A stretch of DNA of 64,000 nt from Malaciobacter mytili LMG 24559 (GTDB taxonomy: Bacteria; Campylobacterota; Campylobacteria; Campylobacterales; Arcobacteraceae), in the NCBI RefSeq assembly GCF_003346775.1, contig NZ_CP031219.1, positions 930,001 through 994,000 of the forward strand, given 5' to 3'. Below the pieces are notes generated by a model. It searched no databases. It was not told where the DNA came from and was given only the letters and a program-made list of their open reading frames with translations. A program made the position numbers and the translations under genes. Shown piece by piece: positions 42,339-48,851 of this stretch. Positions within the stretch are counted from its first letter, which is position 1; each line of letters begins with the position of its first letter.

Positions 42339-44171
42339 TTAACCCTCTAAATTGTTAAAATAATTTAATAGTATTCTTGCATCTTTCTCATTTAGAACAT
42401 TTTTTAGTTCTTCAAAAGTTGCATTTTTAATTTTTTCAAATTCACCAAAATATAATAAAAGCTTTTTAATCTTAGCTTCACCTATACCTTTAATTTGTAA
42501 TAGTGAAATTTTACTATCTTCTTTTCTTTTTTGTTTCTTATGAAAACTAATTGCAAACCTATGTGCTTCATCTCTTAATCTTTGAATAAATTGTAATCTT
42601 TTATCACTTGGAAGTAAATCTACTCTTTTTATTTCATTATTAAGTTCATAAAACACTATATCTTTTGCACTACCTTTTGCTCTATGAGCTTTAAAATCCA
42701 ATTTCTCTTTAGCTATTGCTATAATATTTAAATTTACTCCAATAGAGTTTCTAATATCAATTGCAAGTTTTAATAAAGTCTCTCCTCCATCTATTACCCA
42801 TAAATCAGGTGCAGGATTTTTTTCAAAGCTTTCACTTCTTCTAATTAATGTCTCTTTCATTTGAGCGTACTCATCTTTTGCTTCTAGATTATAGTGTCTA
42901 TAATCTTTTTTTACAAATTTTTCTTCCCATGTGACCATTGCTCCAACAGTTGCTTGTCCCATCATATGAGAGTTATCAAAACATTCAAATCTATTTGGAG
43001 TAGTATTTAAAGAAAATAACTCTTTTAACTCTTCATATATTGTAGTTGTATTTACTTTTTGAAGCCTTAATAGCTCTTCACAGTTATTTAAAGCAATTTG
43101 AATAATTTGTGTTTTTTTACCTCTTTTAGGGTAAATAATAGGAATGTTTTTTTCAAATCTCTCTTTTAAAAACTCTTCTATTTCTTCTAAATCTTCAGTT
43201 ATTTCATTTGCAACAATAATCTCTTTTGGAAGTAGGGGAATTTCATTATCATAATAGTTAATAATTGCTCGTTTATAGGCTTCATTTATATCTATTTCAA
43301 GTTCACCTTGATTTATTTTTAAATAATCATGATTACTTGAAGCTAATTTCCCATCTCTAAAGAACATTCTAACAACTACTGCTTTTTCTTTTGAAACTTT
43401 AATAGCAAAAAGGTCTAAATCTTCTTTTGTTGCTAAATCCATACCTGTTTGAATTTGAGATTTTTCTATTGTTTTAATTCTATCTCTTAATTTCATAGCT
43501 TCTTCAAATCTAAACTCTTCTGAATATTGCAACATTTTTTCATTTAATTTTTTTACAATTTTTGATTTATTATAAATATATTCTAAAGCTTCTTGTATTA
43601 GTTTTGCATAATCTTCTTTTGAAATTTTACCAATACAAGGAGCATGACATTTATTTATTTGATGAAATAAACAGGCTTCTTTTCCTTTTATACAAGATTT
43701 TTTTTGAACTAAAGGTATGATTTCATATATACTATCAAGCATATCTCTAGCCCCTGTTGAGTAAGGACCAAAGTATTTAATATTTTTATCTTTTAAAACT
43801 TTTCTAGTAATTTCTAGTCTTGGAAAATCTTCTTTATAATCAATTACTATATAAGGATAAGTCTTATCATCTCTTAATAAGATATTATATTTTGGTTTTA
43901 ATTGTTTAATAAGTGAATTTTCAAGTATAAGTGCATCATGTTCATTTGGTACTACAATCCATTCTAAGGATTTTACTTCACTAATCATTTTAAAAATTCT
44001 AGGGCTTAATTTATCAGCTGGTGCTAAAGTAGGAGTAAATTTAAAATAGGATTTTACTCTATTTTTAAGCACTTTAGCTTTTCCTATATATAATAAATGT
44101 CCCTCTTTATCAAAGTATTGATATACCCCAGCATTATTTGGTAATTCTTTTAGTTTTTCTTCTAGATTCAT
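42339..44171 (-). CDS. uvrC: UvrABC excinuclease subunit C
   Basis: UvrC makes the two incisions in nucleotide excision repair. The 610-residue protein has the GIY-YIG nuclease ([20 protein letters not shown] near 13-32), a UvrB-interacting UVR motif near 205-240, the RNase H-like second nuclease ([18 protein letters not shown] near 393-410, VIDGGETLL near 463) and C-terminal helix-hairpin-helix ([13 protein letters not shown] near 565). It is the first gene of a minus-strand operon uvrC-alr-sel1. All domains are intact. Confidence 0.97.
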
Positions 44172-44303: not shown

Positions 44304-45212
44304 TTAATGAAAGTTAATATAATAAGGTTTAACCATTATTTTTTGTGTTCCCACAGGTTCTAAGCCCATTATTTGTTTAGGTGTCATTAATGGTTTTTTA
44401 TCATTGTTATAAAAAATTTTAAACCCCCCAATAGCTTTATTTGTTTGAGAATTTGCATATAAGCTATTATAGATTTTTACTTTTACTTCACCTTTACCAT
44501 GTCCATCAATATTATAAATTAGATTGATATTATCATAGTTTTGTACAGCTTCTTTATCTCTTAACATTCTTTCATGAAACATATGAACAATAAGATTCTT
44601 CTTTTCAAGTATATTATTTTGTTTTAAATAGTTACTAATTAACTCTTGTGCTTCATTTAACTCATTACCATAAATATGCCCAATATATTTCCCCGGAGGG
44701 TATTTTCTATGTTTTGGAATTTTAAATTCAGGATCAATTGCTAAATGTACATTTTCATATTTTAAATATTTTAATACAGGTTTTATTGCTTCTGCTGGAG
44801 TGTATGTTCCAAGTTGTAAGTCGATAATTACAGAAAAGCCTTCTTTTTTTGCTCTATTAATATATTTCATTACACTTTCTTCACTCATTCCTAACAGATA
44901 ATCATTTCTTCTTCCTGCATCTTTTGTTGCAAGTGAGTGTATAATATGAAAAGCAAGTTCAATATCAAAATTATTTTCTAATTCTTTATTGAAATACTTC
45001 TCTTTTTGCTTCATTTTATTAATTACTTCATCAATATTACTTTCACCTAAAATTCCCAGTGAAGCAGCATTTGGTCTTCCATAGTAGCCAATTAATAGTT
45101 TGTCTTTTTTTGAGTAATCTGTAATCTCTTTTAAATCTTTTGTAGTAGTTGTAGCATTAAGGCTATTATTTAAAATTGTAAAAAATATAGTAATAAAAAT
45201 TAGTTTCTTCAT
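44304..45212 (-). CDS. Exported TIM-barrel-like protein of unknown function
   Basis: This 302-residue protein has a signal peptide (1-20) and a mature domain that starts LLIGYYGRPNAASLGILGE. It has regular strand-helix alternation, with conserved-looking acids in IIDLQLGTYTPAEAI and LAIDPEF, and HMFHERML, suggesting a TIM barrel related to glycoside hydrolases or polysaccharide deacetylase-like enzymes. Similar proteins occur in other bacteria as uncharacterised entries. No neighbour suggests a substrate. A short AT-rich palindrome lies after it (44274-44295). Confidence 0.65.
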   Translation of the reverse strand: MKKLIFITIFFTILNNSLNATTTTKDLKEITDYSKKDKLLIGYYGRPNAASLGILGESNIDEVINKMKQKEKYFNKELENNFDIELAFHIIHSLATKDAGRRNDYLLGMSEESVMKYINRAKKEGFSVIIDLQLGTYTPAEAIKPVLKYLKYENVHLAIDPEFKIPKHRKYPPGKYIGHIYGNELNEAQELISNYLKQNNILEKKNLIVHMFHERMLRDKEAVQNYDNINLIYNIDGHGKGEVKVKIYNSLYANSQTNKAIGGFKIFYNNDKKPLMTPKQIMGLEPVGTQKIMVKPYYINFH

Positions 45213-45322
45213 ATTGTCAATTTATTCCAAAAAGTTATTTAACTTTAAAAGTATAATATAATAATTTGAAAGAAAATTTAAATTTTCTAAAATAGACACA
45301 AATATAAAGAAATAGGAGACAA

Positions 45323-46003
45323 ATGCCAGGAAGAGTTTCAATATATAATGATATTTTATTTAAAAAAGATGCCAAAGAATTTATTAGAAATGATTTAATA
45401 CAAAAACTTAACTCAAATTATAATATTGCACCTACTATGCCAATACCAACACTTTTAAATGATGGTACATATTTATATACACATTTTGGATTTTTACCTT
45501 CTTGGGCTAGGGAAAAAAGTTCTATGAATATAAATGCTAGAAGTGAAAGTATTTTTGAAAAAATTACTTTTAGAGAGGCTTTTAAATTTAGAAGGTGTAT
45601 TATCCCTATAAATGGTTTCTTTGAATGGAAAAAAGAAGAAAAAATACCTTATTATGTAAGCTCATTAAAAAGTGATTATTTGGCATTGGCAGGAATTTGG
45701 GATGAGTGGTTTGATAAAAAATTAAATCAAAAAATTATTACAGTTGCATTAATTACTTGTGAGGCAAATGAGAAACTAGCACCAATTCATCATCGAATGC
45801 CAATAGTTTTAGAAAAAGAAGAGTTTTCTTTATGGTTAAATTCTTCAAATTTACAAGAGGTTATAAAACTTTTTAAAGTCTATAAAAGTGAAAATACAAA
45901 CATCTATGAAGTATCTACTAATGTAAATAAGGTTTTATATAATCAAAAAGATTGTATTAAAGAGATAAAAAAGAACACTATTGGACAACTTTCTCTTTTT
46001 TAA
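45323..46003 (+). CDS. SRAP (YedK/HMCES) domain protein lacking Cys2
   Basis: SRAP proteins bind abasic sites in single-stranded DNA through Cys2, which becomes the N-terminal residue after Met removal and forms a thiazolidine link. This 226-residue protein keeps the family pattern: NARSE at 71-75, GFFEW with Glu101, and IHHRMP with His156/157. But it begins MPGRV, so Cys2 is Pro. The start is fixed by AGGAGAC just upstream and an in-frame stop (TAA) at 45305. It may have lost crosslinking while keeping DNA binding, or use another chemistry. It overlaps the convergent kinase gene by 26 bases at the 3' ends. Confidence 0.85.
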   Translation: MPGRVSIYNDILFKKDAKEFIRNDLIQKLNSNYNIAPTMPIPTLLNDGTYLYTHFGFLPSWAREKSSMNINARSESIFEKITFREAFKFRRCIIPINGFFEWKKEEKIPYYVSSLKSDYLALAGIWDEWFDKKLNQKIITVALITCEANEKLAPIHHRMPIVLEKEEFSLWLNSSNLQEVIKLFKVYKSENTNIYEVSTNVNKVLYNQKDCIKEIKKNTIGQLSLF

Positions 46004-48356: not shown

Positions 48357-48851
48357 TTAAAAAGGATTTGTTTTCTCTATGATAATATCATCATGAGTTA
48401 CAAATCTATCACATCTTTTACCTTGTAGATTTTTACAAATATTTTCCCATTTTAAAGTATGTCCTGCATTTTCATTTGAAAAATCACCCAATAAAAACAT
48501 TATTGCATGGGCATATTCATGGGGTAAAGTATCTTCTATCATATATTCAAGATTTTCTTTAAATCTATTTTTATTTAGATATATTGCAACATCTTTTTTA
48601 TTGAAAATTGCCATTCCAAAAAGATTATTTTTCATTTTATCTGAGATTATAATAGGTATATTATATGTAATATTGTAGTTTTTGTAAGCTAGTGCTTTTA
48701 ACTCTCTTGTTTTTGCTTCAATTTTTTTTATTATTTTTTCATCTAAGGCAGAGTTGTTAAATTTATAATCTTTATACCATAAATAAATTAGAAAAAAAGC
48801 ACTAATTATAGTGATAAATAAAAAAATATTTGATATTTTTTTTATTTCCAC
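48357..48851 (-). CDS. Membrane-anchored SprT-like zinc metalloprotease
   Basis: This 164-residue protein has one N-terminal membrane helix (about 7-25) and a SprT-like domain with the zinc motif HEYAH (H111, E112, H115) and a third His in NAGHTLKWENIC (H131). The SprT fold in eukaryotes (Spartan) degrades DNA-protein crosslinks; bacterial members are poorly known. The anchor would place the domain on one side of the inner membrane. It starts 3 bases after the stop of the upstream J-domain gene, so the two form an operon. C139 and C147 may stabilise the C-terminus. Confidence 0.75.
   Translation of the reverse strand: MEIKKISNIFLFITIISAFFLIYLWYKDYKFNNSALDEKIIKKIEAKTRELKALAYKNYNITYNIPIIISDKMKNNLFGMAIFNKKDVAIYLNKNRFKENLEYMIEDTLPHEYAHAIMFLLGDFSNENAGHTLKWENICKNLQGKRCDRFVTHDDIIIEKTNPF

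Follow-up and report, generated by a model that had tools for sequence, protein, structure and literature searches.

A SRAP-family protein with proline in place of the crosslinking cysteine in Malaciobacter mytili and its relatives

SRAP proteins are known as suicide crosslinkers: each abasic site uses up one protein molecule, which then has to be cleared by other means. An N-terminal proline is the nucleophile of Fpg/Nei proteins, unrelated enzymes that cut DNA at abasic sites. In the SRAP protein YedK, the ring of the abasic sugar is opened by Glu105 and His160. The first nucleophile is the alpha-amine of residue 2, which forms a Schiff base at C1' in a step driven by Glu105, and the Cys2 thiol closes a thiazolidine only after the Schiff base is in place (PMC9436759). 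The YedK C2A mutant yields a borohydride-trappable Schiff base at 1.7 per min and cleaves DNA at 0.05 per min, acting as an apurinic/apyrimidinic (AP) lyase (PMC9436759). Mycobacterial Nei2 needs its N-terminal Pro2 for AP lyase activity, and its P2C variant is inactive (PMC11323726). Cysteine at residue 2 of SRAP proteins has been described as absolutely conserved (PMC3765255). Here, we describe a SRAP protein with proline at residue 2, encoded in a 64,000-nucleotide stretch of the Malaciobacter mytili LMG 24559 genome (NZ_CP031219.1, positions 930,001 to 994,000 of the forward strand; this whole stretch is called the window, and positions below are counted from its first letter).

The Pro2 gene, its product and the closest described systems

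The open reading frame (ORF) translates from MPGRVSIYND to GQLSLF over 226 residues (45323-46003, plus strand). An earlier note on this DNA had reported a protein starting MPGRV, with Cys2 replaced by proline and a well-fixed start, and both observations are borne out by the translation and by the following features.

45305-45307, plus strand: in-frame stop codon TAA, five codons upstream of the ATG
45314-45318, plus strand: ribosome-binding site AGGAG, read from the sequence, with the ATG four bases on
45323-46003, plus strand: protein of 226 residues with a SRAP domain and Pro at residue 2, stop codon TAA at 46001-46003; Pfam PF02586, 2.8e-54
45326-45328, plus strand: codon 2, CCA, encoding Pro2 where SRAPs have the nucleophile residue Cys2; Pro in 29/29 family members, Cys in 85/85 others

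No alternative in-frame start lies between the TAA at 45305-45307 and the ATG at 45323 and, as AGGAG lies near this ATG, the start can be taken as fixed. A misplaced start concealing a cysteine was ruled out by this upstream stop and by four relatives in which a stop codon immediately precedes the xPGR start (L012 with GTG, L016 with TTG, and L021 and L025 both with ATG). The protein scores 184.3 bits against PF02586, where the curated cut-off is 27.1, and this is its sole Pfam match at 0.001; among proteins of solved structure, BT_1218, HMCES and YedK are related to it in sequence. A profile search of the 3.04-Mb host genome found one SRAP only, which rules out a second, Cys2 SRAP doing the normal job in the host, and the other SRAP-bearing genomes of the family likewise carry one copy, except for a split copy in one of them (G096).

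The AlphaFold2 model of the protein has a predicted local distance difference test score (pLDDT) of 95.4 and a predicted template modelling score of 0.91, with the last block, the C-terminal tail, being the least confident (mean pLDDT 71). Structural matches ranged from Z 20.6 to 27.9, and all 21 chains with Z >= 8 are known SRAP-family entries. The best fold matches were 2F20 (Z 27.9), HMCES 6OOV (Z 26.7) and YedK 6KCQ (Z 26.2); 8D2M, the Schiff-base complex of YedK C2A, matched at Z 25.6 (root-mean-square deviation 2.4 over 208) and 6NUA at Z 25.4. Residue 2 of the model was aligned from residue 2 of the matched SRAP chains. The protein is a member of the SRAP fold family and stands outside the crosslinker class of YedK and HMCES, carrying proline where that class has Cys2.

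The protein has the fold of YedK and HMCES (Z 25-27) and an abasic-site pocket with the conserved Asn, Glu, His and Arg, and the N-terminal residue, which is exposed by methionine removal in YedK, would be exposed in the same way here. The differences lie at residue 2, where proline makes the defining thiazolidine DNA-protein crosslink impossible, and at the C-terminus, where the Pro2 protein has a clamp-binding-like tail that YedK and the surveyed Cys2 SRAPs lack. With the YedK C2A mutant (8D2M), which makes a Schiff base and has slow cleavage activity (PMC9436759), it shares a SRAP site that has an N-terminal amine and no thiol; that mutant, however, is laboratory-made and carries alanine with its primary amine, whereas here a natural, fixed proline with a secondary amine is accompanied by co-substituted neighbours. 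The N-terminal proline, seen here in the sequence, is the Schiff-base nucleophile at abasic DNA in Fpg/MutM, Nei and mycobacterial Nei2 (PMC11323726), but these enzymes have another fold, and the Pro2 protein has no Glu3 beside its proline and no zinc finger, does not match the Fpg/Nei profile, and is not expected to have glycosylase activity. The resemblance to Fpg/Nei is in the N-terminal proline only, a case of convergence and not of membership.

Distribution and single origin of Pro2

Among 104 genomes of the host family Arcobacteraceae (20 genera) searched with the SRAP profile, 30 have a SRAP. Pro2 is present in all 29 of the family SRAPs whose N-terminus can be read; they begin [M/V/L]PGR[L/V], where V and L at position 1 represent GTG and TTG start codons, and the proline is kept at identities as low as 50%. 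Codon 2 was checked in 27 of these genes and reads CCT in 15, CCA in nine and CCC in three. A sequencing error at this codon, which the earlier note had named as a finding that would overturn its own, did not materialise and was ruled out by the recurrence of Pro2 in 29 genomes and by the at least two base changes that separate Cys (TGY) from Pro (CCN). Outside the host family Cys2 was found in 85 of 85 SRAPs, drawn from other families of the same order, a genome-contig scan (three) and viral contigs, a set that is mostly viral and samples chromosomal SRAPs of other phyla lightly, and Pro2 SRAPs may exist elsewhere than in the host family. No published account of a Pro2 SRAP or of an Arcobacter SRAP was found in a literature search and, as far as the searchable literature shows, the N-terminal-Pro SRAP is an undescribed variant of the SRAP family.

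That Pro2 might define a clade had been suggested as an alignment check, and the Pro2 proteins do form one clade (support 100/99) in a tree of 69 SRAPs built by maximum likelihood, where the clade is nested within Cys2 SRAPs of its own phylum. The sister of this clade, with a support of 100/95, is the Cys2 SRAP L036, which comes from a different family within the order; the two other intact Cys2 SRAPs of that order branch outside both. When residues 1-2 were left out, the Pro2 clade was unchanged, with a support of 99 in the Shimodaira-Hasegawa-like approximate likelihood ratio test. Because the Pro2 proteins group together even without the residues in question, the trees are read as recording one ancestral Cys-to-Pro change that was fixed and then kept.

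In 15 of the 20 loci examined in relatives the SRAP gene lies beside uvrC, which points to vertical descent. The corresponding gene of the window is given below, and one uncharacterised gene (44304-45212) separates it from the SRAP gene.

42339-44171, minus strand: uvrC, near the SRAP gene

A recent phage or plasmid origin was rejected on the basis of this synteny and of searches of mobile elements. A DNA pattern for Pro2 SRAPs, which recovers the window gene, had 0 matches in viral contigs while the Cys2 pattern matched 90 stretches, and the closest phage and plasmid SRAPs are less than 40% identical to the window protein, with Cys2 in all six that were read individually. As a separate observation, one Campylobacterota SRAP (L038, 1459-1671, minus strand) carries an internal deletion that fuses a MCGRVDIHD start to the RMP region, leaving 71 residues.

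Active-site residues and the C-terminal tail

Residue counts were taken from an alignment of 28 Pro2 and 76 Cys2 SRAPs, in which the YedK reference sequence is 100% identical to PDB chain 6kcq. From YedK to the window protein, C2 maps to P2, N75 to N71, R77 to R73, E105 to E101 and H160 to H156, such that position 2 alone differs.

45533-45535, plus strand: Asn71 (YedK Asn75) of the NARSE motif; 28/28 Pro2 and 76/76 Cys2 SRAPs
45623-45625, plus strand: Glu101 (YedK Glu105, role from PMC9436759); 28/28 Pro2 and 76/76 Cys2 SRAPs
45788-45793, plus strand: His156 (YedK His160, ring opening; 28/28 and 76/76), followed by the clade-specific His157
45986-46000, plus strand: C-terminal QLSLF, fitting the bacterial sliding-clamp-binding consensus QL[S/D]LF; 27/29 Pro2 and 0/85 Cys2 SRAPs

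Within the Pro2 clade N71, R73, E101, W102, H156 and R158 are invariant. The earlier note had counted Glu101 and His156/157 as kept, which holds for Glu101 and for His156, the equivalent of YedK His160; His157 has no such equivalent and is instead a feature of the clade, present in 25 of 28 Pro2 SRAPs vs three of 76 Cys2 SRAPs, 70 of which have D or N there. Its proposal that selection acts on the fold and DNA site agrees with the retained catalytic residues and with a median pairwise ratio of nonsynonymous to synonymous substitution rates (dN/dS) of 0.20 among the Pro2 SRAP genes. Other invariant residues are particular to the clade, including F55 (Trp in 74/76 Cys2 SRAPs), H54 (Arg/Lys in Cys2 SRAPs), L5 (Phe/Tyr) and N69, which lies two residues ahead of the catalytic Asn and is Met, Thr or Leu in Cys2 SRAPs; D10 and N135 also belong to this clade-specific set. 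The changes at F55, N69 and L5 on the Pro2 branch fit a retuned site.

The C-terminal tail of full-length HMCES contains a motif that binds PCNA. In the Pro2 SRAPs the tail motif, which was absent from the earlier note, is usually GQLSLF and stands at the extreme C-terminus after a linker variable in length and sequence, an accessible position for a QL[S/D]LF/QxxLF motif. QL[S/D]LF is the bacterial consensus clamp-binding motif, and QLSLF occupies the extreme C-terminus of B. subtilis PolC (PMC12309361). The Pro2 SRAP is no polymerase, but it ends in the same pentapeptide. The ending Qxx[LF]F occurs in 18 of 236 ORFs of at least 150 residues in the 20 relatives' loci, all 18 of them SRAPs, and the two Pro2 SRAPs without it (L005 and L002) end in SLFDL, which may be another form of this docking motif. 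The host genome encodes DnaN, and the QLSLF tail probably docks the Pro2 SRAP on this clamp; a literature search found no description of a direct link between a bacterial SRAP and replication. A second, weaker DnaN-like match lies on the host's second contig (6618-7658; 1.1e-34, below the cut-off) and is perhaps a plasmid- or phage-encoded clamp.

Proposed chemistry and its alternatives

The explanation that we favour, with moderate confidence and by analogy, is that the Pro2 SRAP is an abasic-site enzyme without a thiol, in which the N-terminal proline would be the nucleophile, acting as an iminium AP lyase or a reversible capturer that probably docks on the clamp. It is favoured because the amine, Glu and His are kept while the thiol is gone, because proline is the nucleophile of Fpg/Nei, and because Fpg/Nei is absent from the family, with no match to PF01149 in any of the 104 genomes, including that of the host. 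In the proposed mechanism, methionine aminopeptidase would strip Met1, as Met-Pro-Gly is a favourable site, so that proline would become residue 1 and its secondary amine would be free. Glu101 and His156, to judge from their conservation and from YedK biochemistry, would convert the deoxyribose of the abasic site into its open aldehyde form, and the proline nitrogen could then attack C1' to give an iminium (Schiff-base) adduct. With no beta-thiol available thiazolidine closure would be impossible, and a stable thiazolidine crosslink at residue 2 is chemically excluded. The adduct might hydrolyse back, amounting to reversible capture, or undergo beta-elimination with a strand cut (AP lyase), with the permanently charged iminium as electron sink, while the conserved QLSLF would bring the protein, by way of the DnaN clamp, to sites of replication or repair synthesis. 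As to which fate would prevail, the YedK C2A mutant suggests slow cutting and iminium chemistry suggests faster cutting.

More tentatively, this Fpg/Nei-free family may as a whole have independently evolved an N-terminal-Pro abasic-site enzyme on a SRAP scaffold, with one ancestral Cys-to-Pro change turning a suicide shield into a clamp-delivered turnover enzyme, either an AP lyase or a reversible capturer acting through an iminium. If true, a change of the first residue would move SRAP between stable shield and turnover lyase, converging on Fpg/Nei chemistry, and the clamp-binding-like tail would give a bacterial SRAP a direct link to replication, as HMCES suggests for eukaryotes.

Several points weigh against a proline-based enzyme at the clamp. 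Cutting an abasic site in a single-stranded template would break the fork, making a fast lyase at the clamp risky, and an extra AP-cleaving enzyme is not obviously needed in a host whose repair set includes Nth, Nfo and three Xth-type enzymes. Two uracil-DNA glycosylase-type proteins are also present in the host. The proline ring might hinder the approach to C1', the host DnaE has no match to a loose clamp-binding motif pattern, such that the consensus may not be the preference of the host clamp, and a literature search found no biochemical data on any Pro2 SRAP. In addition, the gene is patchy (30/104 family genomes), and in one relative (L029, 1501-2073, plus strand) an in-frame deletion of 36 residues removes the catalytic His region. 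The same L029 protein retains Pro2, the Asn, the Glu and a QQSLF motif near its C-terminus, and the family SRAP of L030 is split.

The earlier note had proposed non-covalent binding or shielding. On this reading Pro2 would abolish reactivity, and the protein would do no more than bind abasic sites or junctions with a 3' overhang, to which the clamp might bring it. The retained fold and DNA-binding residues are consistent with this, as are the harm that a cutter would do at the fork and the DNA binding without crosslink of HMCES and YedK SRAPs (titles of 6NUH and 6OEA), but the first nucleophile is the N-terminal amine rather than the thiol (PMC9436759), and the residue fixed here, out of those that could be exposed by methionine aminopeptidase, is the known AP-lyase residue. 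As YedK C2A still forms a Schiff base and cleaves DNA (PMC9436759), this is not the best reading and we regard it as unlikely; because a processed N-terminal proline keeps its amine, as a secondary amine, transient covalent chemistry is likelier than none. A catch-and-release shield, in which the Pro1 iminium forms fast and hydrolyses uncut, giving brief covalent protection with no protease needed, is possible though doubtful. It is one arm of the favoured explanation, from which it differs in the partition between hydrolysis and beta-elimination, and the likelihoods expressed for the two overlap and are not meant to add up. The Schiff base of YedK C2A forms about 30x faster than cleavage (1.7 vs 0.05 per min; PMC9436759), indicating that the SRAP site disfavours elimination. 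A shield would also suit a clamp-docked protein better than a cutter. An imine, however, is a poorer electron sink than the iminium of a secondary amine, and N-terminal proline accompanies lyase activity in Fpg/Nei, with the P2C variant of Nei2 being inactive.

Two further alternatives were considered. Replacement of Cys2 by another thiol that still makes a stable crosslink is highly improbable. Cys146, next to Thr145, is the candidate, being present in 26/28 Pro2 SRAPs vs 11/76 Cys2 SRAPs, which mostly have Thr, but it does occur in those Cys2 SRAPs, is Ile in two Pro2 members, and with the proline nitrogen cannot give a five-membered thiazolidine; Cys92 is common to Cys2 SRAPs as well (70/76). 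A relic that is decaying or has been neofunctionalised, and that lacks abasic-site chemistry, would fit the patchy distribution, the L029 deletion and the split L030 copy, but it is improbable given a dN/dS of about 0.2, Pro2 and catalytic residues that are invariant in nearly all of the 29 species, the orthologous position beside uvrC, and a tail motif conserved after a variable linker. Sequencing error, misplaced start and decay are each unlikely because Pro2 marks a clade with kept catalytic residues, low dN/dS and a fold match to both YedK and HMCES.

Finally, the window also encodes a small SprT-like metallopeptidase (PF10263, 1.7e-10; 48357-48851, minus strand) that adjoins a DnaJ-domain gene. 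SPRTN, a eukaryotic relative of this peptidase, degrades DNA-protein crosslinks. The N-terminal hydrophobic segment of the SprT-like protein suggests a membrane or exported protein. SprT-like and DnaJ-domain genes are also found near the SRAP gene in nine of the 20 relatives' loci.
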